Positions 767-16,133 of a DNA stretch of 32,693 nucleotides are shown here, piece by piece. Origin of the DNA: Spirochaetales bacterium. Its GTDB lineage: Bacteria; Spirochaetota; Spirochaetia; DSM-27196; SLST01. The position numbers and the translations under genes were made by a program. The notes beneath the pieces are model-generated. The model had not been told where the DNA came from. It worked only from the letters and a program-made list of their open reading frames with translations, and searched no databases. Positions within the stretch are counted from its first letter, which is position 1. Every line of letters begins with the position of its first letter. The stretch lies in contig JAHOYX010000111.1 in the NCBI GenBank assembly GCA_019038705.1, forward strand, positions 1-32,693. Reading direction: 5' to 3'.

Positions 767-796
767 TAGGCACACCTTCCTGAGATGGTGTATAAT
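767..796 (+). promoter_or_regulatory. Sigma-70-type promoter for the SpiroCoCo gene
   Basis: A perfect TATAAT -10 box lies at 791-796. A 4-of-6 -35 box, TAGGCA, lies 18 bases upstream at 767-772. Transcription would begin near 803, followed by a G-rich ribosome site (GGGGGGGAG) before the ATG at 827. The in-frame ATG at 785 lies inside this promoter, so it cannot be the start of a transcript made from it. Confidence 0.6.
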
Positions 797-826
797 GGCC
801 TCGACGTGTTCTTCGGGGGGGGAGCT

Positions 827-3800
827 ATGCAATTCTCAGGCGCCGATATCATTGTCATCGCTGTTGTTCTCATCACACTCATTGTCTATCGCCAGCTGGA
901 TCGGAACAATCGATCCCTTGAAAAGGTCAAGAAATACGCCGGTCGGGTGCACGATGAACTTGAGGTGCATGTCCAGGAAAAGGTGACCGCCATCAAGGAC
1001 ATGGGCATTGAGGTGGAGGTGCACCAGAAGGCTGCCCGCGAGGTGCTCAAGCGGGTTCAGGCGATCGAATCCGGCCTGAATGCGCGGTCTGATGAAATCG
1101 ACCACATCGGAGGTCGCATTCACGAGTACGACGAAGCGCTCGCCGAGCTCGTGAAGATGACAGCCCGTGCGGAGGAGAACATCGGCAGGGTTCGTGATGA
1201 GTCCGCGTATGTTGATGGTGTCGGAAAGCGCATCAAGGAGAGCCAGACGAAGATTGCGGGTGTTGAACGTTCCGTAGATACGCTCGTTGATCAGTTTGCG
1301 CAGATCAACCGCGAGCGCCTCGATGAAACCCAGGCTGCCGCGTTCCAGGAGGCGACCGCTCAGGTTAATGGGATGAGTCAGGACCTGTCCGGATTCCAGG
1401 AGAGACTGAATCAGTTTGCCGAGTACGTCCGAGGGGTCGAGGAGCGGGCCGAGGGCATCAGCGAACGGACCCGGACCGAGTTGGAGGACGTATCCGACAC
1501 CGTCATGCATCGGGCTCAGGAAGCCTCCATACAGGGTTCCGAGCAGCTCTCGGAGCTTCGAGAGCAGTTGGAGCTGCTGGAGAACGACTACGAGAAGAAA
1601 CTTCTCTCGCTGGCCGAACGCGGCGAGCGGATGGAGACCGCGGCACTTGCCAGGCTTCGCGAGCAGATTGATACCCAGGGGCGCGCCGTTCAAGCCGAAC
1701 TGGGCGATCGCCTCGAGGGCAACAAGAAGGTGCTCGTGGAGCGGGTTGAGGCGTTTGAGAGCGGGATCCGGGAGAGTCAGGCTGTTCTCGCTGAGCGGTC
1801 ACAAACGCTCGAGGCGGAGCGTGAAGCCGTTCTGCAGCGGATTGCCGAGTTTGGTGGGGACCTGAAGAAACAGATTGATTCCGCGTCCGAGAAGATTCAG
1901 AGTTCGGTTCTGGGAGAGATTGAGTCGAGGCTGGGCGAGTACGAATCGCAGATCACCTACCGTTTTGAGAAACTCGATGGCGTTGGCGGTGATCTGGAAC
2001 AGCTCGAGGCGCGACTGCACGATTCGATGGAGAAGATCACCGACCGTGTCACTGCTGACTTCACGGATTTTGCGGAAGAATTTGCTCAAAGCAGGGAGGG
2101 TCAGCGTCGGGCAGCCGACCTGGAAATGGCGAGACTCCGCGAGCAGATGGGGGAGCTCGAATCCGGGATCGGTGACCTGAAGACCCAGGCCTACGAGAAC
2201 GTGAGCGAGAAGCTCCGGGTATTTGAAGACGAGTTCTTTGCCGACCTCAAAGAGCGACAGGTTGCCATGGAACAGCGACTGGTGGACTGGCAGGCCGCGT
2301 TCCAGCAGGAGATGGATGGCGTGGCAACCCAGGCCAGGGAGGAGCGTGCCGAGATTGAATCCGGCTATACGACCGATGTGAAGCGGCGCCTGGAGGATTT
2401 GCAGTCTTCCGCATACGGGAAGTATGAAAAGATTCTGGAGGAGGCTCTCTCATTCCAGCAGGGGATCGAGATCAGAGTGAACGGAGCGCAGGAACTGATA
2501 GCTTCTCTCGAGCGCGATATCGAGGAGGAAACCTCGCAGCTGGCCGCTGAATCCAAGGCTCAATTGCGAGAGCAGTTCGCCCGACACCGGGATCAGGTTG
2601 CTGAAGAGGTTGTTGATCTGGAACGGGGTCTTCGCCAACGCATTGAGGATCTCGGTGAGAAGTTTGAAACCGGCCGACATGACCTGGAGACGATGCTGGA
2701 GGAGAGCCGCAGCGATGCCACCACATGGAAATCACAGGTGGACCAGCGGTTGCAGGGCGCTTCCAACGATGTGAATCAGCAGATCGCCGACTTCCGCGTG
2801 AACATCGGCGACACGGTAGCCGATCTCAAACAGACATTTGCCGCAGATCGGGAAGAGGCGCTCGCCGCGAGCTCGGCCGAACGCGAGCGGCTTCAGGCAG
2901 AACTGGATTCGTTGTCCGCTCAGGTTTCAGGGCTGGTTGACGATATCCGGCAGAAGAGCAATGAGGCGCTCGCCGAGTTCAGTGAACAGTACGCTGCTCT
3001 GCGTGTGGAGACCGAGAAGCAGACGAGGGGTCTTGGCGCTGACGCCGATGCCCGTGCCCAGGATTTCCGAGTCTTCGTGCAGGATACCCGCGATCAGTTT
3101 ACCGCGATGCAGGAACGCCTCCTCGGCAAGCTGCAGGAACAGGCCCAGACGTTGACCATCAACCTGGATGAGATTCAGAAGCGTCAGCGCACATTCAGTG
3201 AGCAGACTAAAATTTTTGAGCGCGCGGACACTATGAAGGACGAACTTCAGCGGGCCATCGCCGGGTTGCGAGAGGACCTGAGCCGCGTGGAGCAGCAGCG
3301 CAGGGATATACGCGACATTGAGGGTCAGTTCACCAAGCTCAGGAAGTCAACCGACGACGTTTCCGAGCGAATGGGCAAGTTCATGGCTGAAAAACGCCGC
3401 ATTGACTCGCTTGAGGAGGACTACAAGCGCCTGACGACAATGAGCCAGTCGGTCGAACTGAAACTGGATCACGTGACCGCGAGTAACGACTCCCTCCAGG
3501 CAATGCAGGCGTCGCTGCGCAATCTGGAGGAAGTAGAGAAGGATGTTGAAAGCAAATTCCAGCGTCTCGAGAAGAAGAAGGCCATCCTGGACCTGACCAC
3601 CGAGGGGGTCGACAGAAACTTCCAGAGCCTGCAGGAGGCCGAGGGCAGACTCGGTGAGATCACGACTGAACTCAATGCACTGCCGGGTCACGTGGAAGAA
3701 CTCTCGACGCGGCTTGGGCAATTGGCAGGAAACAAGCGCGATGCTGATGCCGCGGTGAAACAACTCGCACTGCTGGACCAGACCCTCGAGGAGATTGAGG

Positions 3801-4081
3801 AGCGGATGGAGAGTCTGAACTCCGCCCGCGAATGGCTCGCGCGGACTGAAACCCGATTTGGCGAGGTTCAGAACGAGGCGGAGGAGCAGGTCAAGCTGCT
3901 CGGTGCCATCATGAAACAGCAGGGTAAGAGTTCCGGCGGCGAGGCCGGTGCTCCCGCCATCACGACCCGGGACACGGTGCTAAAACTGGCGAGACAGAGC
4001 TGGAACGTGGATGAGATTGCCCGCGCCACGAGCCTCTCGCGGGGCGAAGTTGAGCTGATCCTGGAGCTGGCCACCAAGTAG
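827..4081 (+). CDS. SpiroCoCo-family giant coiled-coil membrane-anchored protein
   Basis: A 1084-residue protein made almost wholly of coiled coil. A single hydrophobic segment (about residues 4-20) follows a very short N-terminus. Then come about 1000 Glu/Gln/Arg/Leu-rich residues with heptad periodicity and almost no Pro, Cys or Trp. The last 30 residues form a compact helix-turn-helix-like tail (NVDEIARATSLSRGEVELIL). This layout matches the SpiroCoCo family, which I know as spirochaete-specific and of unknown molecular role; a cytoskeletal or envelope scaffold is a guess. The ATG at 827 is preferred to an in-frame ATG at 785 because it follows a strong purine-rich ribosome site and the upstream one sits in the promoter. 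The rod could approach 100 nm if fully extended, estimated from the standard coiled-coil rise per residue. Confidence 0.85.
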   Translation: MQFSGADIIVIAVVLITLIVYRQLDRNNRSLEKVKKYAGRVHDELEVHVQEKVTAIKDMGIEVEVHQKAAREVLKRVQAIESGLNARSDEIDHIGGRIHEYDEALAELVKMTARAEENIGRVRDESAYVDGVGKRIKESQTKIAGVERSVDTLVDQFAQINRERLDETQAAAFQEATAQVNGMSQDLSGFQERLNQFAEYVRGVEERAEGISERTRTELEDVSDTVMHRAQEASIQGSEQLSELREQLELLENDYEKKLLSLAERGERMETAALARLREQIDTQGRAVQAELGDRLEGNKKVLVERVEAFESGIRESQAVLAERSQTLEAEREAVLQRIAEFGGDLKKQIDSASEKIQSSVLGEIESRLGEYESQITYRFEKLDGVGGDLEQLEARLHDSMEKITDRVTADFTDFAEEFAQSREGQRRAADLEMARLREQMGELESGIGDLKTQAYENVSEKLRVFEDEFFADLKERQVAMEQRLVDWQAAFQQEMDGVATQAREERAEIESGYTTDVKRRLEDLQSSAYGKYEKILEEALSFQQGIEIRVNGAQELIASLERDIEEETSQLAAESKAQLREQFARHRDQVAEEVVDLERGLRQRIEDLGEKFETGRHDLETMLEESRSDATTWKSQVDQRLQGASNDVNQQIADFRVNIGDTVADLKQTFAADREEALAASSAERERLQAELDSLSAQVSGLVDDIRQKSNEALAEFSEQYAALRVETEKQTRGLGADADARAQDFRVFVQDTRDQFTAMQERLLGKLQEQAQTLTINLDEIQKRQRTFSEQTKIFERADTMKDELQRAIAGLREDLSRVEQQRRDIRDIEGQFTKLRKSTDDVSERMGKFMAEKRRIDSLEEDYKRLTTMSQSVELKLDHVTASNDSLQAMQASLRNLEEVEKDVESKFQRLEKKKAILDLTTEGVDRNFQSLQEAEGRLGEITTELNALPGHVEELSTRLGQLAGNKRDADAAVKQLALLDQTLEEIEERMESLNSAREWLARTETRFGEVQNEAEEQVKLLGAIMKQQGKSSGGEAGAPAITTRDTVLKLARQSWNVDEIARATSLSRGEVELILELATK

Positions 4082-4261: not shown

Positions 4262-5770
4262 CTATTGGTAGCTACGAACTCGAGTAGTGCCGTCGTCGTC
4301 GAAGGCCGCAAAGAGCTTCCCGCCCCCGGCTGCGAGAGTAAGCGCCGTTGGTGTTGAGCCTGTGAAGTCGGACGGGCTGTTCTGGGCCCACGAGGGTGCC
4401 GTGGTGTCGTACTGAGCCACAACCCCGCCATCCTGTGCCAGATCAAGGTAGAAGAGCGAGATCATCTCGGATTGGGCTGCCAGCCCCACCGACGTGCCGT
4501 CGGGATCCACAACACCGGAAAACCCGGAATCACTTCCCGGAACCACAACGCCCTCTTCGTCGACGAGGTGCAGTCCCGACGTGTCCAGGTAGGCAACCGA
4601 GATGCCGTCGGTGGCAGGGGAGACAGTCGGGTCAATGGTGATCGCGGTGGCCTCGATTTCGATGTCGCCCGAAGAGCCATCGTACGCCGGCGGCAATGGA
4701 TCTGCCGGCCAGCCGCTCCCGGTCCACACGGCCACACGAAGGCTCGCGGTTTCCCCGAGGGCGTCAACGTTGTCGTCTTCCAACTCGTAGAGGAGCACGG
4801 CAGCGCCCGGGACAGCGGCCGCATCAATCTGGCCGATCGAGCCGACTGCATTATCCAGAGTGTCATCTGTCACCGACGGGGCAGTGAGCGATACGAGCGC
4901 CCCGTTATACCTGCGCATCACCATTTCGCCCGCCGCCCCGCGATAGCTGATCAAGAGGTCGTCAGCGTCAATTGCCACGAGGGTCACAAATGGTGCGGAG
5001 GGGTGGGCCTGTGGGAACGCCGGCCCTTCAAGCAGGGACCATTCCTCGAGCTCCGGATCGTATCGATACAGGAACACCTTATCCGTGTCGGACACGACTT
5101 CCGGGTCCTCAGCGACGATCGCGGCATAGACGTTCCCGGCCGCGGCAACATCCGCAACCCGGGTGTCGGTGCCGTCGGTAACCTCGGATGGGCTGCCAAG
5201 CACCGTCCGGGCACCGTCGGCCTCAATCTGCCTTACGGTCGCGGTCGCCCCGGTCCCGTTCCCGACCGTCAGCACGTATGCCTGTATTGTGGGTGTCGTG
5301 CGGTCCAGGGCCAGCCGAATCGTCCCGGCGGCGCCAAATATCGTCGCCTGATCCTGCCACCCGATCTCCTCGGCGTCACGAAAACCCTCAACCACACTGC
5401 TTGGGAGTGACTCTTCACCTGTTGAGAGCCGGCCCGCGCTCACCGTGTAGAAATAGCTCGTGGGGTCGGTGTCAATGTCCAGCAGGGTAGCCTGACGCAC
5501 AGTTTGATAGGGCACATGAACGGTATCCCCGCCATCCGGGAAGGGTCCGTCAGGACTCAGTGAGCGATAGACGTAGTAGACGTCGGCGCCGGTCACGGCG
5601 CCCCATGTGACCTGGATGAGATCTGTGCGGTCGTCGCTTGCTGCCACACCGGTGGGGGCGACTAGTGAACCGAAGAAGGTCAGTCCGCAACCGGTGAGGC
5701 CGATTATTACACCCGCGATCAGCGCCGCGCGGCAAACCAGCGTCCGGGTCTCAGCTCTGTGTAACGACAT
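4262..5770 (-). CDS. Secreted lipoprotein with N-terminal fibronectin III-like domain
   Basis: A 502-residue lipoprotein. The signal peptide ends in a lipobox, LTGC, giving lipidated Cys28. After it comes a fibronectin type III-like stretch (about 38-115, with VTWGAVTGADVYYVYRS), then a large region rich in Asp, Gly, Thr and Val with repeated strands, probably a beta-propeller or beta-sandwich. I recognise no enzyme motif. The start codon overlaps the stop of the upstream beta-barrel gene (TGATG), so the two are translationally coupled. As last gene of the Lol-like operon it may be an accessory lipoprotein of the barrel or the cargo of the pathway; both are inference. Confidence 0.85.
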   Translation of the reverse strand: MSLHRAETRTLVCRAALIAGVIIGLTGCGLTFFGSLVAPTGVAASDDRTDLIQVTWGAVTGADVYYVYRSLSPDGPFPDGGDTVHVPYQTVRQATLLDIDTDPTSYFYTVSAGRLSTGEESLPSSVVEGFRDAEEIGWQDQATIFGAAGTIRLALDRTTPTIQAYVLTVGNGTGATATVRQIEADGARTVLGSPSEVTDGTDTRVADVAAAGNVYAAIVAEDPEVVSDTDKVFLYRYDPELEEWSLLEGPAFPQAHPSAPFVTLVAIDADDLLISYRGAAGEMVMRRYNGALVSLTAPSVTDDTLDNAVGSIGQIDAAAVPGAAVLLYELEDDNVDALGETASLRVAVWTGSGWPADPLPPAYDGSSGDIEIEATAITIDPTVSPATDGISVAYLDTSGLHLVDEEGVVVPGSDSGFSGVVDPDGTSVGLAAQSEMISLFYLDLAQDGGVVAQYDTTAPSWAQNSPSDFTGSTPTALTLAAGGGKLFAAFDDDGTTRVRSYQ

Positions 5771-7665
5771 CAGAACGATCCTCCCGGCATTGCGATTGAA
5801 ACGGTGACTCCAAAGGTCGGCTCTGCCGGCTCCGCCGACAGCAGCGAACCGGGATTGGTGAACTCATCACTCTCTCCTCCAAACGTGAACCGGGCAGAGG
5901 CCGACACCGAAAACCTGTCCAGGAACGAGTAGGAGATTGCCGGTGTCACGATGCCCGACCAGTCCGACATGTTGACCAGGCCAAAGGCCGTGATCCCGAG
6001 ATCGGTGCCCAGAATGCTGGAAAGCGAAAGGGTGAGGCCCGCGTAGTGGCGTCCCCAGTTCGTGACATCACCGAACGCCAGGGCGGGGGGATCCTCGTAT
6101 CCTTCCGGTTGTGCTTCCGGATCATCAATGATCAGTCCGTTCTCGCCGGTGTTTGCCAGCAGCCGGGCGGCAGCGGGCATCAGCCCGGGCGTCTCGTCCG
6201 CATACCCTTCGCCGTTGAAGAAGTATTGACCGATGACCGCAAGGGAGAGCGTGTCCTCCCACTCCTTGAGGTAGCGGAAGCCCGCGGTGGCCTGGGCAAA
6301 GAGGGCGTCGCCAACCTCAAAGGTGTCCAGCACGATATCCAGATCATCTTCCGGATCGGCATCGGCGGCGCTCTGGTCCCGGCTGGGCCTCACGAAGACC
6401 CGGTCGGAGCCGTAGAGGAGAACTCCTTCGCCGAAAACATCGACCTCGCCAATACTCGCGGAGTAGAGAGCAACAAGCCGTGGCGCAAGGGTCCGCTGAT
6501 AGTAGCCGGCAACGCCCAATTCCCCTCTTCCAACGGCAAGCTCCACCTTCGGCGCGATCGCAACGTCAAGTGGCTCCGCGTCCGCGTTGAGGATGGCGTA
6601 CAGATATGCGTTGCCGGTGATGCCAAAGGGATACTGCACTCGAAGCGAAACCGGCCCCTCCCTGTCGGCGGTCGGATCCTCGGCATCAACGGCTGTCAGG
6701 TTCAGCACGTCCGCAGGGCTGAAGAAGTATCCGGTCCCCCACTTGATCGTGTGTTTCCCGAATCGGAAGAAGAGTTGATCCTGCCAGACGTAGTCTGCAA
6801 AGAGCTCAAACACCAGGATTTCGAGGCCCGGCGGAGTGCCGAGGCTCCCCGGGTCCTCCTCCGGTTCCTCGTCGTCCTCTCCATCAGCGGCCCCATCCGC
6901 GGGGATCGTGATGATCACCGTTCCGGTTCCGTCGCGGATCTCGGTATCCCCGTCGTCGTTTTCCTCGGTCGTCCAACCCTCGGGGAGGGCGGATGTGTCG
7001 ATGTCACCGCCGGTAAGGGCGAGCCCGGCAATATCAAGGCCCCCGTCGGTCGTCGTATCAATACTCAGCTTCCCAAATGCGCGGAACTCCTCTTCCGGTC
7101 GAGCGTCAAAAAAGAGGTCGGCGCCGATTGATGGCTGGAGGCTCTCCGAAGTCGGGTCAAACGGGCCGAAATCCGACGTCCAGACGTCGTCCCAGCCGTA
7201 ATCCGCCGAGACAGAACCCCTGATCCGGCCGCCCCAACGGACACCTTCGGTAATCAGAAGATCTGACACAGGCGAACCAACGGGAACAGCTCCTTCCGGG
7301 GCTTCTTCAATGATTTCGTCTGTGGCGAAAAGCGAATCGAGATCGTCCACGTCTATGAAGTCGTTGCCGATCGCCGTCGAGTCCCCGCCGCCGCCGGCGG
7401 CGTCATCGACAATCGCGAACGGATCGGCGAACAGGTCATCGGTATCCGCGTCCGATTCGCCGGCCCCAACCGCGAACGGATCCGCGAACAGAGGATCTTC
7501 AAACAGCGAGTCGTCCATCAGAGGGTCCGCAACCTCCGTCGGTGGCTCCGGCTCGGCCTTTCCTTTCTCCGATGAATCGACCTGGGCCGCCATCCAGACG
7601 GGTGCGCAGGCAACGAGGATCGCTGTCAGCAGTCTGCGTCGTGCGCTACCCCCCCGTGTGCTCAC
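5770..7665 (-). CDS. Outer-membrane beta-barrel protein with acidic N-terminal extension
   Basis: A 631-residue exported protein. It starts at GTG with AGGAGA nine bases upstream; the stop codon of the preceding gene is part of that ribosome site. Residues 1-27 are a signal peptide (ending VWMAAQ). Residues about 46-120 are acidic and disordered, with Phe-Asp-rich repeats including LFADPFA twice. From about 140 onwards, alternating strands run to a C-terminal Phe (IAMPGGSF), the usual end of a BAM-assembled barrel. The segment FGKHTIKWGTGYFFSPADVL resembles the GKQ-WG-NP motif of DUF1302-like barrels, which I recall from other lipid-transport loci; homology is not shown. A second acidic loop lies near 235-270. 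It is likely the outer-membrane end of the operon's transport path. Confidence 0.8.
   Translation of the reverse strand: MSTRGGSARRRLLTAILVACAPVWMAAQVDSSEKGKAEPEPPTEVADPLMDDSLFEDPLFADPFAVGAGESDADTDDLFADPFAIVDDAAGGGGDSTAIGNDFIDVDDLDSLFATDEIIEEAPEGAVPVGSPVSDLLITEGVRWGGRIRGSVSADYGWDDVWTSDFGPFDPTSESLQPSIGADLFFDARPEEEFRAFGKLSIDTTTDGGLDIAGLALTGGDIDTSALPEGWTTEENDDGDTEIRDGTGTVIITIPADGAADGEDDEEPEEDPGSLGTPPGLEILVFELFADYVWQDQLFFRFGKHTIKWGTGYFFSPADVLNLTAVDAEDPTADREGPVSLRVQYPFGITGNAYLYAILNADAEPLDVAIAPKVELAVGRGELGVAGYYQRTLAPRLVALYSASIGEVDVFGEGVLLYGSDRVFVRPSRDQSAADADPEDDLDIVLDTFEVGDALFAQATAGFRYLKEWEDTLSLAVIGQYFFNGEGYADETPGLMPAAARLLANTGENGLIIDDPEAQPEGYEDPPALAFGDVTNWGRHYAGLTLSLSSILGTDLGITAFGLVNMSDWSGIVTPAISYSFLDRFSVSASARFTFGGESDEFTNPGSLLSAEPAEPTFGVTVSIAMPGGSF
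7414..7490. repeat. Short direct repeat encoding the LFADPFA motif
   Basis: Two 20-base copies, at 7414-7433 and 7471-7490, differ at one base and start 57 bases (19 codons) apart. On the minus strand they encode the two LFADPFA motifs in the acidic N-terminal region of the beta-barrel protein. Identity at the DNA level suggests a fairly recent internal duplication or gene conversion. Confidence 0.75.
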
Positions 7666-7676
7666 CCGTCAATCTC

Positions 7677-8438
7677 CTAGTTGCTGACCCGCTCGAGGTA
7701 GGCCTTGCTGAACACCGAGTCAGGGATGGTCTGGATTGTGGCATCAGTCATGGTGAGCTGTGTGCGCTCACCGTCGTTGAGTTCGTCAACGATCAGCACC
7801 TGCTTGGGGATGATCTTGCTGCCGACCCGTTCGTAGCGGGGATAGAGGACCGTTCTCATGAGTCTGCCGTTCACGCTGAAATCCTCTTCCTTCAGCACGA
7901 TTGTCTGATCCTGGCGAATCCACAACCGCACCTGGTCGTACGCGACGTCGGAGGATCGAGCTTCCAGATCGACCACGTAGACGTCAAAGCTGCCCAGTGT
8001 GCCCTCCTGCCACGATTGTACCGTGTAATCGGAGCTGAATGAACTCTGATCCAGGTCGGCATTCTGGGCGTCCGAGTTCTGGATGTTCTCCCTGATCGTC
8101 GTACGCTCAAACTTCCGGCTCTCCGGATCGTAGAACCAGACGTTTTCATCAACCTGCAGGTATCCCTGGCCGCGCTGAACATCCGGTTGGAGGATGAGAA
8201 TGAGAAACTGGTCGTTCAGGTCCCGCCTGAACAGTCGTGCCTGGGTTACCTCGCGCTCCTCTCCCGGACGCTCGGATATGATCGTGTAGACGGCGGAGAA
8301 ATCGCTCTCTGAGAAGTTTGCGAGATCGTCAATCTCCCGCAGAATCGAGTCGAAATCCGGATCCTCAGCGGCAACCCAGACCGGGGTCAGTACGGTGAGC
8401 GCGGCAATCAGGATGGAAGTGTATATCAGTCGCTTCAT
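7677..8438 (-). CDS. LolA-like outer membrane lipoprotein-sorting protein
   Basis: A 253-residue periplasmic protein. It has a signal peptide (1-24, ending VWVAAE) and then a LolA/LppX-type fold, the family annotated as outer membrane lipoprotein-sorting protein (PF17131, named from memory). Family-typical features are the GYLQVDENVWFYDP segment (about 92-105) and the RKFERTTIRENIQNSDAQNA segment that follows, both strongly conserved in that family. Such proteins carry a lipid or lipidated protein in a half-barrel across the periplasm. It begins 11 bases after the permease stop, with AGAGAGG as ribosome site, and sits between inner-membrane and outer-membrane components. Its cargo is unknown: lipoprotein or free lipid are both possible. 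Confidence 0.88.
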   Translation of the reverse strand: MKRLIYTSILIAALTVLTPVWVAAEDPDFDSILREIDDLANFSESDFSAVYTIISERPGEEREVTQARLFRRDLNDQFLILILQPDVQRGQGYLQVDENVWFYDPESRKFERTTIRENIQNSDAQNADLDQSSFSSDYTVQSWQEGTLGSFDVYVVDLEARSSDVAYDQVRLWIRQDQTIVLKEEDFSVNGRLMRTVLYPRYERVGSKIIPKQVLIVDELNDGERTQLTMTDATIQTIPDSVFSKAYLERVSN

Positions 8439-8449
8439 GCGATACCTCT

Positions 8450-9784
8450 CTAAGCTCTCAGGGCGTCAACGGGCGGCATGAGCGCCGCCTTCCGGCTTGG
8501 GATGAACGCTGCCAGGATGGTCAATCCGGCCACAATGCCGGCATTCATCGCAACCTGAAGCGGTCTGACCGCGAAAGTGAAGTAGCCATTCTTCAGAAGG
8601 ATGAATATCGCCGAGTCCAGACCCAGGAAGATCTGGCTCATGATCAGCATGATGATCCCGGCGACGACAAGACCAAAGAGCACTCCTCCCATCGCCAACA
8701 GAAACGCCTCCAGGAGGAAGAGTATCTGGACCCTTTCACGCTGCATCCCGAGGGCACGCATCGTTCCTATCTCCTTGACGCGCTCATACATAATCATCCG
8801 GAAGGTGTTCGTTATGCCGACCATGATGATCACGAACAGGACGAGGAGGATCACCAGTGCCGCGCCGTTCAGGAGCCGAACAATCTCATCAACTTCGCTC
8901 AGAACATCGTTCAGCGTGAATAGCCGATATCTGACTCCAGACCACGTCTCCTCGTCGGCCTGCTCAAAGAGCGCTTCAACCGGATTTTCGCCCTCTTCCT
9001 CGGTATTGCGCTCAAAGACGTTGACCCGCCGGCTCAGCTCTTCGAAATACTGGTCGGCTTCCTGGTCAATGAGTCCGAGATCGGTAAGAAAGATGCCGAG
9101 AGTCTGATACTGTTTCGGTTGCAGGGTGAGGAGTTCATTCACGTAGGAGAGATCCGCATAGGCGGACAACTGTCCAAACAGCCCCGGGTCATAACTCACT
9201 CCGGCGAGCACGAACTCCCCGACGTTCTGCTGTCCCGCGATGGTGCGCATTCGCGCGATGATCCGTTCACCAAGCTCGACGTTCAGCGCCTCGGCAATTG
9301 TCTCGGTGAGGATGATCCCGTTCCGTTCTCCGCGGTCGTTCGTCGCAAGCATGTTCTCGAACTCGCCATCGAGCAGCACGAGCCGTTCGCGAAGATACCG
9401 TTCCTCATCCCAGTCCACGCCGACGACCGTTTGTCGGATGCTCTCGCCCTGGAAAATGAGTGCCCCGGTGAACTCGCTGCGCTTGCTGACGAAAGTGACC
9501 GGCATCTCCTGTTCGGCCACTATCTCGAGGAGAATGTCGTCATCGGCGATTCTCCACTGTTCCTTCCCGTCCGCCGTTTTCTCCACGCCTTGCACGAAGA
9601 TATGCCCGGCGAGGATATTCGAGAAATTCTCGCTCACGTTCTCAACGAAACTGCCGGCGAATCCGTTGATCAGCGTCACGATCGTGATGCCGAAAGCAAT
9701 GGCTCCGCCGAGCAGGAATGTTCGGCGTTTCTGTCGATTGAGGTTTCGGAGTGCTATCAGGACCGTCTTCAGTAGTGTCTTCAT
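8450..9784 (-). CDS. FtsX/MacB-type ABC transporter permease (LolC/LolE-like), second subunit
   Basis: A 444-residue inner-membrane permease with the FtsX-family layout: one N-terminal membrane helix (about 25-47), a large periplasmic domain (about 48-310), then three C-terminal helices (about 311-335, 360-385, 412-432). The cytoplasmic loop carries the family-typical coupling sequence ERVKEIGTMRALGMQR. The protein ends PPVDALRA, typical of FtsX/LolE permeases. These permeases do not move substrate through the bilayer; they use ATP hydrolysis to drive periplasmic mechanical work such as lipoprotein extraction (LolCDE). It begins 15 bases after the first permease, and the two probably form a heterodimer. 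Confidence 0.92.
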   Translation of the reverse strand: MKTLLKTVLIALRNLNRQKRRTFLLGGAIAFGITIVTLINGFAGSFVENVSENFSNILAGHIFVQGVEKTADGKEQWRIADDDILLEIVAEQEMPVTFVSKRSEFTGALIFQGESIRQTVVGVDWDEERYLRERLVLLDGEFENMLATNDRGERNGIILTETIAEALNVELGERIIARMRTIAGQQNVGEFVLAGVSYDPGLFGQLSAYADLSYVNELLTLQPKQYQTLGIFLTDLGLIDQEADQYFEELSRRVNVFERNTEEEGENPVEALFEQADEETWSGVRYRLFTLNDVLSEVDEIVRLLNGAALVILLVLFVIIMVGITNTFRMIMYERVKEIGTMRALGMQRERVQILFLLEAFLLAMGGVLFGLVVAGIIMLIMSQIFLGLDSAIFILLKNGYFTFAVRPLQVAMNAGIVAGLTILAAFIPSRKAALMPPVDALRA

Positions 9785-9799
9785 GTTGTTCTTACCACG

Positions 9800-11413
9800 T
9801 CACTCCGTCTGGATGGCCTTGATCGGCTGGATCTTCAGAGCAACCGAAACCGGGTAGAGGTGCGCGAGGATACCGATAACGCTGACAATCACCAGCGACC
9901 CAAGCACCGAGATCGCCGAAGCCACAGGCTTCAGTTCGGGACCGGCGAAGAGGATGGTGAGAAAGGTGTTTGTTGCCGGCACGCCCATCAGGTGGAGTAT
10001 TCCGATGATGCCAAGTCCGGTCGCAACACCGATCAGTCCGAACAGTGACGTGATAACGAGCGTTTCCACCATGAACATCCGCCAGACGAACCCGCGCTGC
10101 GCGCCGAGAGCCCGCATGGTTCCTATCTCGCTGGTGCGCTCCATGACCGAGAGCACCATCGTATTCATAATGATAATCACCGCCACGATACCGATTATCA
10201 GGATCGCGATATTGAACACCGTGCGAATGACGTCCGCCGTCGTAGCGAACGGACCGGCCGCCATCTCCCAGTTCCCGGCCTGGGCCGAAATGCCCTGCGA
10301 GATGAACCACTCGTTCAGCTCTTCAACCACATGATCCGTCCTGCGCGGGTTCTCCACACGGGCGAGGAAGTAGTGCCAGGTTGTCCCGGCGTCGATCTCG
10401 GCCTCAACCTGGACCAGTGCTTCTTCGGCTTCGCTCGTGGCATTCCCCGTTCCGAGCATGCCGTCGAGATTCTCAAAGTCGACCACTTCCCCGGTAGCCT
10501 CAGCTATGACCGAATCCCCGAACAACTCTTCCCCGAAGAGATCATCGCCGAATGGATCCGCCGAAAAGAACTCGTCCTCGAGAGAATCGCCCCTGCCGGC
10601 TTCCACTCGATCCAGCAGTTCGGTCTGCTCATAGTCAAGCTCGATCTCACTGCTTGCTCCGAGACTCAAGCCCAGGAGTGCTCGCAGTGTCTGCGGGTCG
10701 ATGTAGCTGATCAACTCGGCTCCCACCCCTTCGCTGATGCCGGTCATCTCATAGATGCCGATCAGAGGCACGACCCGGATCCGTGGAAGTCCCTGCGACA
10801 GCCCGCTGACAACGCGTATGCTGTCCCCGGCGTGGATCTCGTACTCTTCCTCTTCGATCCCCGCATCCTCGAGACCCCGGAGGGCCGCTTTCTGGAGATC
10901 CTCAACGCGATCGGTGCTCAGCATGATGCCTTCGGTGCCCGGCTCCAGGTATGTGCCCTCGATCAACTGGAGATTGTCAAACATCTCGCGGTAGCTCGTC
11001 GGGTCAATCCCGAAGAGAACCGTGAACGCGCTGTTCTCGAGGCCATCAATCCGGTCGTCCTCCGCACGCATGAACCCGAAACCCGAGATCTGAGTCGTCG
11101 TGGCCGTAATCTGAGGATTGCCGGTGAGGTGATCGTTGATCTCATTGAATTCCGGTATGACGGGAGTCTGTTCGAGGCGACCAACCGATTGCACGCCGAA
11201 CAGACTGATGCTTCCTTCAGCGAGACCGGAGACCATGATGTTGCCGGTGTAGTTGTTGATGAAGGCGCGCTCAATGCCGGTCCGGGCGGTATCCATCATG
11301 GCATTGCCGACGACCAGAACAACGACAGCGAGTGCGACGATGCTGCCGATGATGAGGGTCTTCCCCTTGTGCTCTGTCAGGTTGCGCATGGCAATGCGCA
11401 GGAGTACGCCCAC
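9800..11413 (-). CDS. FtsX/MacB-type ABC transporter permease (LolC/LolE-like), first subunit
   Basis: A 537-residue partner permease with the same four-helix FtsX layout: helix 1 near 17-38, periplasmic domain about 40-395, last three helices about 396-425, 448-475 and 500-522. The conserved loop ERTSEIGTMRALGAQR is present. It is about 90 residues longer than its partner. Part of the difference is an acidic insert at about 272-310, rich in Phe, Asp and Gly (SADPFGDDLFGEELFGDS), within the periplasmic domain. This insert resembles the acidic extension of the barrel encoded three genes downstream. It lies 4 bases after the ATPase gene. Confidence 0.92.
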   Translation of the reverse strand: MGVLLRIAMRNLTEHKGKTLIIGSIVALAVVVLVVGNAMMDTARTGIERAFINNYTGNIMVSGLAEGSISLFGVQSVGRLEQTPVIPEFNEINDHLTGNPQITATTTQISGFGFMRAEDDRIDGLENSAFTVLFGIDPTSYREMFDNLQLIEGTYLEPGTEGIMLSTDRVEDLQKAALRGLEDAGIEEEEYEIHAGDSIRVVSGLSQGLPRIRVVPLIGIYEMTGISEGVGAELISYIDPQTLRALLGLSLGASSEIELDYEQTELLDRVEAGRGDSLEDEFFSADPFGDDLFGEELFGDSVIAEATGEVVDFENLDGMLGTGNATSEAEEALVQVEAEIDAGTTWHYFLARVENPRRTDHVVEELNEWFISQGISAQAGNWEMAAGPFATTADVIRTVFNIAILIIGIVAVIIIMNTMVLSVMERTSEIGTMRALGAQRGFVWRMFMVETLVITSLFGLIGVATGLGIIGILHLMGVPATNTFLTILFAGPELKPVASAISVLGSLVIVSVIGILAHLYPVSVALKIQPIKAIQTE

Positions 11414-11417
11414 AGCG

Positions 11418-12128
11418 CTACGCCCCGTCGCCCGCCGGGGCGGTTCTCCGATTCTCGATGATATTGCCGTCCAGAAGTCGAATGATGTGATCTGCGATTC
11501 CCATGATGGACGGGTCGTGGGTGCTGAAGATGAACGTTGTCTCCAACTCGCGATTGATTTTCTTCATCAGCTCGATGATGCCTTCCCCTGTCTTGGAATC
11601 CAGGTTGGCCGTGGGCTCATCGGCAAGCACAATCTGCGGCCTGGTGACGAGCGCACGGGCAATTGCCACCCGCTGCCGCTGCCCGCCGGAGAGTTCGTTT
11701 GGCCGGTGGGTCCGCCACCGCGTGAGATCCACTTCCTCTATGAGAAAATCGACATACCGCTTCCGTTCCTCCTTCGGCGCGACCTCGGTGCCGAGGAGCA
11801 GCGGAAACTCGACGTTCTCAAACACATTGAGGACCGGCACCAGGTTGAAGCTCTGGAAGATGAAACCGATGAACTGGTGCCGCAGCCGCGTGATCTCACG
11901 GTCGGTAAGACCGCTGGTCGGCTGATCGTCTATGTACACGGTTCCTTCCGTCGGTGTGTCGATGCAGCCGATCATATTGAGGATCGTCGACTTTCCGGAC
12001 CCCGACGGACCCGCGATTGATATGAAGTCGCCCCGCTCGATTGAGAAGGTAACTCCATTGACTGCCCGGACATGTGTCTCCCCGAGCGGATAGACCTTGT
12101 GTACGCCTTCCAACCGAACGATGCTCAC
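11418..12128 (-). CDS. ABC transporter ATP-binding protein (LolD/MacB-type)
   Basis: A 236-residue ATPase with Walker A GPSGSGKS (40-47), Q-loop within GFIFQSFNLVP, signature LSGGQ, Walker B IVLADEPT and switch His in STHD, all intact. The motif after Walker A (IGCIDTPTEG) and the length are typical of the LolD/MacB/FtsE group. The frame is open about 90 codons further upstream, but family alignment begins at SIVRLEGVHKVYPLGE, so the GTG at 12128 is chosen. An AAGGAA element lies 14 bases before it, a long spacing that makes the start slightly uncertain. It is first in the operon and energises the two permeases that follow. Confidence 0.92.
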   Translation of the reverse strand: MSIVRLEGVHKVYPLGETHVRAVNGVTFSIERGDFISIAGPSGSGKSTILNMIGCIDTPTEGTVYIDDQPTSGLTDREITRLRHQFIGFIFQSFNLVPVLNVFENVEFPLLLGTEVAPKEERKRYVDFLIEEVDLTRWRTHRPNELSGGQRQRVAIARALVTRPQIVLADEPTANLDSKTGEGIIELMKKINRELETTFIFSTHDPSIMGIADHIIRLLDGNIIENRRTAPAGDGA

Positions 12129-12291: not shown

Positions 12292-12978
12292 ATGTCGACC
12301 GACGAGCAGATGCGAGATAAACAGGCAGTCGATGCTGAATCCGAGACCGAAAGCGCGGATGGAACTGCCGATACATCTACCGACACTGAGGCCAAATCCG
12401 GCGTTGAAGAATCCGGCGATGCAGCATTGCGGGCGGAAGAGAGTGCGGAGAGCGGACCGAACGAACAGGTCGAATTGACTCCGGAAGAGCGTCTGGAGAC
12501 CCGGATTGTCGAACTGGAGGCAGAGAACGCCGGACTCGCGGACGGCCTGCTGCGAAAGACGGCTGACTTTGAGAACTACCGGAAGCGCATGCTCCGGGAG
12601 AAAGAGGAGTTTGTCGCATACGCGAACAGGGAACTTCTTCTGGACATTGTTTCAATTGTTGATGATTTTGAACGTGCGATCCGTTCCGCCGACGAATCTC
12701 ATGACTTCGCCGCGTTTCATGATGGCATCGTCATGATTGAGAAGCAATTCATAAACATGCTCGACCGGAAGTGGAAGCTTGCCCGGTTTGACAGTGTTGG
12801 AGAGGAGTTTGATCCTCAGCGGCACGAGGCAATGATGACCGAGGATCGATCGGATCACGAGCAGTCCATGGTGCTCGAGGACTTCCAGAAGGGATACATG
12901 CTGCATGAGAAGGTCCTGCGACCGGCAAAGGTGAAAGTGTCCATGCCGGACGCTTCGGGCCCCTCGAAGCGGGAATGA
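12292..12978 (+). CDS. grpE: Nucleotide exchange factor GrpE
   Basis: A 228-residue cytoplasmic cochaperone that releases ADP from DnaK. The first 60 or so residues are an acidic, Glu/Ser/Asp-rich disordered extension. A long dimerising helix follows (ETRIVELEAENAGLADGLL), then the family hallmark KTADFENYRKRM and the C-terminal beta domain (DSVGEEFDPQRHEAMM and the VLRPAKVKVS end). Length is slightly above normal because of the acidic N-terminus. It leads a grpE-dnaK-dnaJ operon. Many spirochaetes place hrcA before grpE; here the gene upstream is divergent and unrelated. Confidence 0.96.
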   Translation: MSTDEQMRDKQAVDAESETESADGTADTSTDTEAKSGVEESGDAALRAEESAESGPNEQVELTPEERLETRIVELEAENAGLADGLLRKTADFENYRKRMLREKEEFVAYANRELLLDIVSIVDDFERAIRSADESHDFAAFHDGIVMIEKQFINMLDRKWKLARFDSVGEEFDPQRHEAMMTEDRSDHEQSMVLEDFQKGYMLHEKVLRPAKVKVSMPDASGPSKRE

Positions 12979-13020
12979 CAGGAATCTAAACCAGGGTAGA
13001 GAAAGATAGAGGAGAACGGT

Positions 13021-14997
13021 ATGGGAAGGATCATTGGTATTGATCTTGGAACAACCAACTCGTGTGTTGCGGTGATGGAGGGTGGTGAGCCCGTAGTCAT
13101 TCAGAACAGCGAGGGTCAGCGCACGACGCCGTCGATGGTTGCGTACACGAGCAAAGGCGAACGCCTCGTCGGGCAGCCTGCAAAGAACCAGATGGTGACC
13201 AATCCGGAGAACACCATCTACTCCATCAAGCGGTTCATGGGGCGGCGGCAGGATGAGGTCTCTGAAGAGATCCGCATGGTTCCGTACGAGATCGTGACCG
13301 ACAGCTCCGGCGGAGCCCGTATTCAGATTGGAGACTCCCAGTACTCGCCTCCTGAGGTTTCTGCCGCGATCCTGCAGAAGATGAAGGAGACGGCTGAAGA
13401 CTACCTTGGCGAGAGCGTGACTGAAGCTGTCATCACGGTTCCGGCCTACTTCAATGATGCCCAGCGTCAGGCAACCAAGGACGCGGGCAAGATAGCGGGT
13501 CTCGAGGTCAAGCGGATCGTGAACGAACCGACTGCGGCTTCACTCGCTTATGGCTTTGGCAAGGAGAAGAAGGAAGAGAAGATCGCCGTGTTCGACCTCG
13601 GTGGCGGAACATTCGACATCTCCATCCTCGAGCTCGGCGACGGCGTGTTTGAGGTCAAGAGCACCAACGGTGACACACACCTTGGCGGTGACAATTTTGA
13701 CCAGCGCGTGATCGATTGGCTTGTCGGCAATTTCAAGCAGGACTATGGCATTGACCTTTCCCAGGACCGCATGGCCCTCCAGCGCCTCAGGGAGGCGGCC
13801 GAGAAAGCCAAGAAGGAACTTTCAAGCACCCAGCAGACAGAGATCAACCTTCCGTTCATTACCGCCGATTCAAGCGGGCCGAAGCACCTCCAGTACAGCC
13901 TGACCCGCTCGCGCTTTGAGCAGATGGTAGAAGACCTCGTCCAGAAGACCAAAGAGCCTTGCCTGAAGGCGCTGAAGGACGCCGGACTGCCGGCCTCCGA
14001 GATCGACGAAGTAATCCTCGTCGGCGGTTCTACGCGGATGCCTGCGGTGCAGGAGCTGGTCAAGGAGATGTTCGGTCGTGAACCCCACAAGGGCGTCAAT
14101 CCGGACGAGGTAGTGGCTGTCGGTGCGGGAATTCAGGGCGGTATCCTTGGCGGAGACGTCAAGGACGTGCTTCTCCTGGATGTGACGCCGCTTTCGCTGG
14201 GCATAGAGACGCTCGGCGGAGTATTTACCCGGCTCATTGATAGAAACACGACGATACCAACGCGAAAGAGCCAGATCTTCTCGACAGCAGCGGACAACCA
14301 GAATGCGGTGAGTATCCATGTGCTGCAGGGCGAGCGCGAGATGAGCACCCAGAATCGTACTCTCGGCCGGTTTGACCTGGTCGGGATCCCGCCGGCCCCG
14401 CGCGGCGTACCCCAGGTTGAAGTAGCCTTTGACATTGACGCAAACGGCATCGTGCATGTGTCGGCCAAGGATCTGGGTACGGGCAAGGAGCAGAAGATAC
14501 GGATCGAGAGCTCCTCGGGACTCTCCGACAGCGAGATTGACAAGATGGTCAAAGAAGCCGAGGCGCACTCGGAAGAAGACAAGAATAGCCGCGAAGCGGC
14601 TGAGAGCCGAAACGAGGCCGACAACCTGATCTACGCCACTGAGAAATCGCTGTCCGATTTCGGCGAGAAGATTTCCGACGATGATCGACAGGAGATCCGC
14701 AATGCGATCTCCGAACTCAAGACAGCCATGGAGAGCGATGACCCTCCAGCTATCAAGGAGAAAACCGAGGCGCTGAAACAAGCCTCCTACAAGCTCGCAG
14801 AAGAGGTCTACAAGAGCACGCAACCTGAGGGTGAAGCCGCGGATCAGGCCGGGGCGGAAGCTGACGGCGCGACTGCCGCCGACGACGGTACGGACACCGG
14901 GGGCGGCGAGCAGTCCGGAGCGGATGCAAAGAGCGCCGAGAAGGAAGCTGCGGAAGACGTTGACTACGAGGTTGTAGACGAGGACGAAAAGAGCTAG
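13021..14997 (+). CDS. dnaK: Molecular chaperone DnaK (Hsp70)
   Basis: A 658-residue Hsp70. The nucleotide-binding domain (about 1-385) shows [18 protein letters not shown], the second phosphate motif [14 protein letters not shown] and the adenosine motif [14 protein letters not shown]. The linker [19 protein letters not shown] leads into the substrate-binding domain and helical lid. The tail is Gly/Asp/Glu-rich and ends [12 protein letters not shown], a typical bacterial DnaK C-terminus. It folds nascent and stressed proteins with DnaJ and GrpE, encoded on either side. A strong ribosome site, AGAGGAGA, precedes the ATG. Nothing is abnormal. Confidence 0.98.
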
Positions 14998-15002
14998 CGG
15001 CA

Positions 15003-16133
15003 GTGGCCAAACGAGACTACTACGAGGTGCTTAGCGTTGATCGCGGCGCCGCCAAGGACGACATCAAACGCGCGTATCGTAAGATCGCGGTCGCAAACCA
15101 TCCCGACCGGAATCCTGGGGACAAGGCGGCGGAAGAACGGTTCAAAGAAGCAACAGAAGCCTATGAAGTTCTCGCCGACGAGAAACGCCGTCAGGCGTAC
15201 GACCAGTTTGGCTTTGCCGGCGTGGAGGGCATGGGTGGCGGTCCGGGCGCCGGTGGATTTACGTCGGCTTTCCGGGACTTTGAGGATCTGTTTGGCGACT
15301 TTGGCGGCATCTTCGATTCCTTCTTCGGAGGCAGTGGCGGCAGACGGCGGGGCGGCGGCCGCGAGAGCGTTCAGCGTGGAAGCGATCTCCGCTACGACCT
15401 CGAGATTGCGTTCAAGGAAGCTGCGTTTGGGACCAAGGAAGAAGTCTCCTATCCCAAAGAGATCAGCTGTGATCGCTGCAAGGGCGCGGGGTCGGAGCCC
15501 GGCAGTGGCAAGAAGACATGTCCGACCTGCGGTGGTGCAGGGCAGGTGCGCCGAAGTTCCGGCTTCTTCTCAATTGCCAGCGCCTGTCCGACCTGCCGCG
15601 GCGAGGGCACCATCGTAGAGAAGCCTTGCTCCAAATGTGGCGGCAGCGGCTTGCTGAAGAAGAACCAGAAGATCAACGTCACGATCCCGGCGGGAGTTGA
15701 GGACGGGCGCCGGATCAGGATCCCCGAACAGGGGGATGGTGGCCCACGAGGTGGTCCACCGGGTGATCTCTATGTTGTGATCAGGGTCCGGTCGCACGAG
15801 TTCTTCGAGCGGGATGGCTTTGACATTTACTGCGTGATTCCGGTGAGTTATGCCCAGGCCGCACTTGGCGCAGAGCTGTTGGTGCCAACGCTCGACGGCA
15901 AACAGGTGAAGGTGAAGATCCCGGCGGGAACCCAGAACAACAAGATTCTCAGACTCCGAAACGAAGGGATCTCTCACGCGTCCAGCGGACGCCGCGGTGA
16001 CATGTATCTCCGCATTCTCGTGACCATACCTCGTAAGCTGTCATCCAGAGCGAAGACACTCCTCAAAGAACTTGCGGAAGTAGAAGGGGAGAACACCAGC
16101 CCCAAACCTGTTCCGCTTGCGGATCTCAGATAG
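15003..16133 (+). CDS. dnaJ: Chaperone protein DnaJ (Hsp40)
   Basis: A 376-residue class A J-protein starting at GTG, five bases after the dnaK stop. The J domain (1-70) has the HPD motif in ANHPDRNPGD. A Gly/Phe-rich linker (about 75-120) follows, then a zinc-binding domain with four repeats: CDRCKGAG, CPTCGGAG, CPTCRGEG and CSKCGGSG. The C-terminal client-binding domains follow. All eight cysteines are present. It delivers clients to DnaK and stimulates its ATPase. Confidence 0.97.
   Translation: MAKRDYYEVLSVDRGAAKDDIKRAYRKIAVANHPDRNPGDKAAEERFKEATEAYEVLADEKRRQAYDQFGFAGVEGMGGGPGAGGFTSAFRDFEDLFGDFGGIFDSFFGGSGGRRRGGGRESVQRGSDLRYDLEIAFKEAAFGTKEEVSYPKEISCDRCKGAGSEPGSGKKTCPTCGGAGQVRRSSGFFSIASACPTCRGEGTIVEKPCSKCGGSGLLKKNQKINVTIPAGVEDGRRIRIPEQGDGGPRGGPPGDLYVVIRVRSHEFFERDGFDIYCVIPVSYAQAALGAELLVPTLDGKQVKVKIPAGTQNNKILRLRNEGISHASSGRRGDMYLRILVTIPRKLSSRAKTLLKELAEVEGENTSPKPVPLADLR

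Follow-up and report, generated by a model that had tools for sequence, protein, structure and literature searches.

What is carried across the envelope by a spirochaete operon that has the parts of a Lol pathway and ends in an outer-membrane barrel of its own? The operon belongs to a Spirochaetales bacterium (genome 63.8% complete) and lies in a stretch of 32,693 nucleotides, analysed as a whole and referred to here as the window, in which six closely packed genes run on the minus strand from position 12128 to 4262, with short gaps or overlaps, and encode in this order an ATPase, two permeases (C and E), a carrier, a barrel and a lipoprotein, as located by the initial annotation. A 1,098-residue coiled-coil protein is encoded on one side of the cassette (785-4081; a neighbour in 13 loci), and a GrpE-DnaK-DnaJ operon is divergent from it on the other (12292-16133; a neighbour in about 9 loci).

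Gene content and protein families

The first gene of the conserved cassette (11418..12128, minus strand) encodes an ABC ATPase of the LolD/MacB type (PF00005, 2.3e-33), which scored 217.4 bits against the LolD equivalog model TIGR02211, below the cut-off of 307.75; its GTG start at 12128 agrees with this model, whose match starts at residue 92 of the longer open reading frame. The FtsX-type permease C (9800..11413, minus strand; PF02687, 4.9e-16) has hydrophobic segments at residues 15-44, 389-427, 443-481 and 494-528 and a large periplasmic domain at about residues 45-388, and is followed by permease E of the FtsX/MacB_PCD type (8450..9784, minus strand; PF02687, 1.1e-14; PF12704, 1e-10). The similarity of both permeases to the lolCE model was confined to their C-terminal part (48 bits for C and 60 bits for E; cut-off 362.45). 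The LolA-like periplasmic carrier (7677..8438, minus strand) is a member of PF17131 (4.4e-43; 147.5 bits against a gathering cut-off of 30), scored 16.5 bits against the LolA family PF03548, below the cut-off of 23.6, and has NE2245 (PDB 3buu, 2.7e-26) as its best PDB relative. The assignments previously made for the carrier and the two FtsX permeases were thus reproduced by the profile searches, and that of the lipoprotein is confirmed by an LTGC lipobox.

The 631-residue protein encoded at 5770..7665 (minus strand) had been proposed to be a beta-barrel ending in Phe, and this was borne out by its AlphaFold2 model, built with 38 relatives, in which a barrel was predicted with pLDDT >90 for most strands, and by a C-terminal Phe that is invariant in these relatives. 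The best PDB matches of the fold in Foldseek were Campylobacter MOMP, Veillonella OmpM1, porins and AlgE, and the 50 best matches were porins, MOMP, OmpM, AlgE and similar proteins, so that the barrel is not of the Omp85 type. At the sequence level, the barrel profile found nothing in the PDB. The protein alone matched no Pfam family, PF06980 (DUF1302) included; PF06980 was matched by 10 of the 38 relatives, with 4.2e-7 as the best value, suggesting that the barrel is related to DUF1302, a family working with LolA-like proteins and RND pumps in systems such as AmeABCD. Residues 25-129 form a disordered N-terminal tail (7279..7593, minus strand; pLDDT <50).

Conservation of the cassette and its separation from Lol

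Loci were gathered by similarity to the barrel alone, in the collection scan with a narrow barrel alignment, ignoring all neighbours, so that the genes next to the barrel provide an unbiased test of conservation. Among 296 Spirochaetota genomes, matches to the barrel were found in 79 with the single sequence and in 120 with the profile. In a set of 127 non-redundant barrels, the gene immediately upstream was that of the carrier in 112 of the 116 cases that could be tested, and the complete order of five genes, from the ATPase to the barrel, was seen in 79 of the 89 loci with enough sequence. The five-gene cassette of ATPase, permease C, permease E, carrier and barrel is therefore conserved far beyond chance, and the barrel does keep its place beside Lol-like genes. 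The whole cassette is present in Treponema putidum, while the barrel is separated from the remaining genes in T. vincentii and in a relative (L133 and L039 / L196); permease C of the relative with the detached barrel retains the box described below. No barrel match was obtained in the profile search for a 1.1-Mb genome of a Treponema-like family (G053) or for the small genomes of family f8.

The cassette had been regarded as a machine of spirochaetes, which proved too narrow, since it also occurs in metagenome-assembled genomes labelled Bacillota, Firmicutes or Clostridia (loci L140, L142, L152, L156, L158, L168, L173, L179 and L180), and a shorter form is found in Gamma- and Betaproteobacteria. 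All eight Bacillota-labelled genomes checked encode Omp85, indicating that they probably have an outer membrane; the genomes with this label are either diderm Bacillota or mislabelled bins. In the tree, seven Bacillota-labelled loci and one unassigned bacterium formed one clade (support 0.993). Further genes were seen behind the barrel in some loci, namely, immediately after it, those for a histidine kinase and a response regulator of the OmpR type (L036:10078-12070 and about 16 further loci), from which some cassettes are probably inducible, and in several loci one for a flavodiiron-type protein with ODP beta-lactamase and flavodoxin domains (for example L051:2988-4205).

The sixth gene behaves differently from the other five. 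The lipoprotein gene (4262..5770, minus strand), whose start codon overlaps the stop codon of the barrel gene, is found in 8 loci, always directly behind the barrel and mostly in the clade of the window, and full-length relatives of its product occur in 2 of the 296 sampled genomes, all other matches spanning the FN3-like N-terminal domain only. Of the conserved six-gene set envisaged by the initial annotation, five genes thus stand and the lipoprotein, which had been taken for a core part in the place of LolB, does not; being absent from most cassettes and yet not restricted to the window, it is regarded here as an optional partner. Its model was of low confidence (pLDDT 57) and its fold matches were mostly kelch, sialidase and WD40 propellers, and the beta-propeller that may lie behind the FN3-like domain is for this reason a tentative reading.

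A survey for a separate Lol set, which had been suggested as a check, showed that the cassette does not hold the only Lol genes of the organism. A separate LolA of PF03548 was present in all eight genomes tested, with the copy of the source genome on contig 93, and a second FtsX pair in the order FtsX-ATPase-FtsX was found in all eight regions fetched. When three of these sets were scanned against the NCBIfam lolCE model, five of the six permeases scored 191-226 bits and the sixth 148; the set of the source genome gave 200 and 191 bits, also under the cut-off of 362.45. These Lol-type permeases, while still under the family cut-off, score far above the 48 and 60 bits of the window permeases. 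Since LolCDE-type genes and LolA exist separately, the cassette was rejected as the Lol pathway of the organism, and many spirochaetes carry the five-gene machine apart from their ordinary Lol genes. Like LolCDE-LolA-LolB, the cassette combines a LolD-type ATPase with two FtsX permeases and a soluble carrier of the LolA fold; in contrast, its carrier belongs to PF17131 and a barrel stands at the end of the pathway, without LolB. To our knowledge, no LolB is known in spirochaetes. The earlier view of a dedicated trans-envelope cassette with its own barrel, distinct from canonical Lol, therefore holds, with a gene order that is conserved across Spirochaetota.

A box shared by permease C and the barrel tail

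The first reading overlooked what proved to be the most informative feature. The barrel tail cannot be aligned between relatives except for a box of the D-x-L-F-G type in acidic surroundings, of which the window has three copies, DPLFA at residue 57 (7483..7497), DDLFA at residue 76 (7426..7440) and DSLFA at residue 110 (7324..7338, all minus strand). The same box is present in one loop of the periplasmic domain of permease C, with two copies in the window covering residues 290-299 (DDLFG at residue 290 and EELFG at residue 295; 10517..10546, minus strand). Among 85 full-length sequences of permease C, Phe293 is conserved in 98%, in a loop that otherwise mostly varies. Judged by the hydrophobic segments of the protein, the permease C box lies in the periplasm, the side that N-terminal tails of outer-membrane barrels likewise face.

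A strict pattern of the box was found in 74 of 122 barrel tails (shuffled mean 11.5) and in 61 of 98 permease C proteins (shuffled mean 15.7), and elsewhere in the cassette in none of 111 carriers, none of 88 ATPases and 5 of 100 permease E proteins. With a profile of the barrel tail, 82 of 90 permease C proteins scored at least 10, the best match falling in the same loop in 80 of the 90, as compared to 2 of 95 permease E proteins, 1 of 98 carriers, none of 83 ATPases, 2 of 33 other FtsX permeases and 9 of 442 background proteins encoded in the neighbourhood. The reverse search, with a profile taken from one column of the permease C alignment and without any regular expression, gave scores of at least 10 for 110 of 120 barrels, in 107 of them within the tail, and for 4 of 95 permease E proteins, 1 of 100 carriers, 1 of 83 ATPases and 12 of 510 background proteins. 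The box is thus restricted to permease C and the barrel tail and nearly absent from the other proteins compared. The strongest background matches were the G/F regions of cytoplasmic DnaJ proteins (DFEDLFG), indicating that motifs of this kind occur elsewhere and that the pairing is the unusual part.

The two copies also tend to occur together. Among 100 cassettes, the box was present in both proteins in 74, in neither in 7, and in one of them in 19 (Fisher p 0.004); in our reading, the permease is cut by a contig end in 8 of the 19 mixed cases and the barrel start was mis-called in one, and without these cases the p value was 6e-5. Paralogous cassettes of other spirochaetes mostly followed this pattern: three bear the box in permease C as well as in the barrel and three bear it in neither, and a fourth of the box-less type (L200) showing a chance-level permease match. 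The box is absent from the proteobacterial versions of the module, and hence it is not required in every such pathway. A basic pair of the carrier, R71-R72, is found in 64 of 74 box-bearing cassettes and in none of the seven box-less ones; however, the box-less carriers are divergent throughout, and this pair is therefore only a candidate binding site for the box.

In E. coli, only LolC of the two permeases recruits LolA, through a periplasmic loop known as the Hook (PMC10865981). The cassette resembles this arrangement in that one of its two permeases bears a putative carrier-docking loop, and differs in that the putative docking box is common to the outer-membrane receiver too. Given this precedent, and since within the cassette the carrier alone is both soluble and periplasmic, the simplest reading would be that it recognises the box at both membranes. 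It is unlikely that the box serves instead to bridge permease C and the barrel via another periplasmic protein, or as a chaperone site for unfolded barrels; the similar motif in the G/F region of DnaJ would fit the latter, but a chaperone site would leave the box of an inner-membrane permease unexplained, and the cassette offers no soluble periplasmic protein other than the carrier. Neither the present cassette nor the box was found described in a limited search of the open-licence literature.

Proposed pathway and cargo

From the conserved cassette, the predicted barrel, the separate Lol set and the shared box, we infer a dedicated carrier pathway, leading from the inner to the outer membrane, in which the carrier would dock on the shared box at both membranes and the cargo would be a lipid, a reading that we hold to be moderately probable. 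Judging from their families, the ATPase and a heterodimer of permeases C and E would draw a lipophilic molecule out of the inner membrane, after which the PF17131 carrier would dock on the box in the permease C loop and take the cargo, as LolA does on the LolC Hook. The carrier may then diffuse to the outer membrane and dock on one of the boxes in the flexible barrel tail, and the DUF1302-like barrel would receive the cargo and insert it into the outer membrane or pass it across. Both stations, the inner-membrane donor and the outer-membrane receiver, would in this way be marked by a single short tag. Whether the acidic-x-L-F-G box serves a periplasmic lipid carrier as a docking code with two stations, and defines a spirochaete-wide lipid export separate from Lol and Lpt, is in our judgement evenly balanced.

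The nature of the cargo is suggested by the proteobacterial relatives. An ABC-FtsX-PF17131-barrel module was found in Rahnella, Enterobacter, E. coli and Paraburkholderia, and a related one in marine Vibrio, where the surroundings are unannotated; the spirochaete barrel profile matched the barrels with 7e-11 in Rahnella, 5e-9 in Vibrio, 2e-6 in Enterobacter, 1e-5 in E. coli and 6e-3 in Paraburkholderia. The three Enterobacterales clusters hold ketosynthases and a malonyltransferase, to which E. coli adds an acyl carrier protein, FabZ and a holo-ACP synthase, and the Paraburkholderia module adjoins lipase genes and a gene for a phosphopantetheinyl transferase. The modules in fatty-acid/polyketide-type clusters share gene order and families with the spirochaete cassette and differ from it in having one recognised FtsX permease, in lying inside a biosynthetic cluster and in lacking the box. 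By analogy with these clusters, a lipid or lipophilic product is the more likely cargo, as compared to a lipoprotein. No lipid-synthesis gene was conserved beside the spirochaete cassette in the neighbour survey, and the cargo assignment therefore depends on distant relatives.

Export of surface lipoproteins, by a second Lol system handing selected lipoproteins to the barrel and with the product of the sixth gene as cargo or cofactor, would accord with the LolCDE-like engine, the LolA-like carrier and the 8 loci in which a lipoprotein gene immediately follows that of the barrel. Most cassettes, however, have no lipoprotein, the carrier matches PF17131 and not LolA, and the relatives sit in fatty-acid/polyketide-type clusters, and we find this explanation rather improbable.

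Another conceivable role is the inducible efflux of toxic lipophilic compounds or membrane-active peptides by a MacB-like machine in which a shuttle replaces MacA-TolC. AmeABCD of Castellaniella, which has the same types of carrier and barrel, consists of a DUF1302 barrel, a LolA-like protein and an RND-type pump, with AmeC as another periplasmic accessory protein, and confers monoterpene tolerance (PMC6394551), and the regulator-kinase pair behind the barrel in about 17 loci would also fit. This pair is, however, missing in most cassettes, and neither a conserved MacA adaptor nor TolC was recognised beside the cassette among the part of the neighbours scanned; we therefore consider efflux quite unlikely. 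Uptake, with the barrel importing a lipid that the carrier delivers to the ABC permease, is highly improbable, since, although porin-type barrels can import, the FtsX-type (type VII) ABC transporters known to us function in export or mechanotransmission and the relatives sit in biosynthetic clusters.

A lipid carrier pathway of the kind that we favour is related in different ways to other systems. In P. putida, the DUF1302 barrel and the LolA-like protein encoded by PP_0765/0766 are predicted to form a complex (PMC10866462), and both this pair and AmeABCD resemble the cassette in joining a DUF1302-type barrel with a periplasmic protein of the LolA superfamily. Unlike the cassette, the engine of which is ABC/FtsX, these systems have an RND (HAE3/MMPL) engine, and their carrier is of DUF1329. 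The Borrelia cluster BBJ23-29, proposed to export a non-polar ligand, is likewise a spirochaete cluster with a MacB-like ABC transporter, a LolA-like carrier and a barrel; by the description given, it differs in its Omp85-type barrel, in a single homodimeric permease, in two TPR proteins and in being reported from Borrelia only (PMC13078400, 2026). AmeABCD, the DUF1302/DUF1329 pair of P. putida and an unstudied fatty-acid-type cluster of E. coli can be joined as one carrier-barrel unit, driven by ABC or RND engines. For spirochaetes, a defined and conserved gene set with a receiving barrel bears on how lipids and lipoproteins are delivered to the outer membrane and the surface. It also offers a short motif, accessible to mutation, that is expected to set the stopping points of the carrier, and carrier targeting can be tested directly with peptides and point mutants.

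Two further gene sets were noted. The ABC-FtsX-PF17131-barrel set of E. coli is part of a fatty-acid/polyketide-type cluster in the csg-ycdU region (L103:537-20866); this arrangement is present in 382 of 5,426 E. coli genomes, and the cluster lies beside an FHA/FhaC pair and has YcdU as its last gene. In the genome from which the window was taken, contig 66 (L072:5799-10702) encodes in a row an MMPL transporter, a PF17131/DUF1329 carrier and a probable barrel of 458 residues, so that the principle of the cassette recurs in this organism with an RND-type engine.
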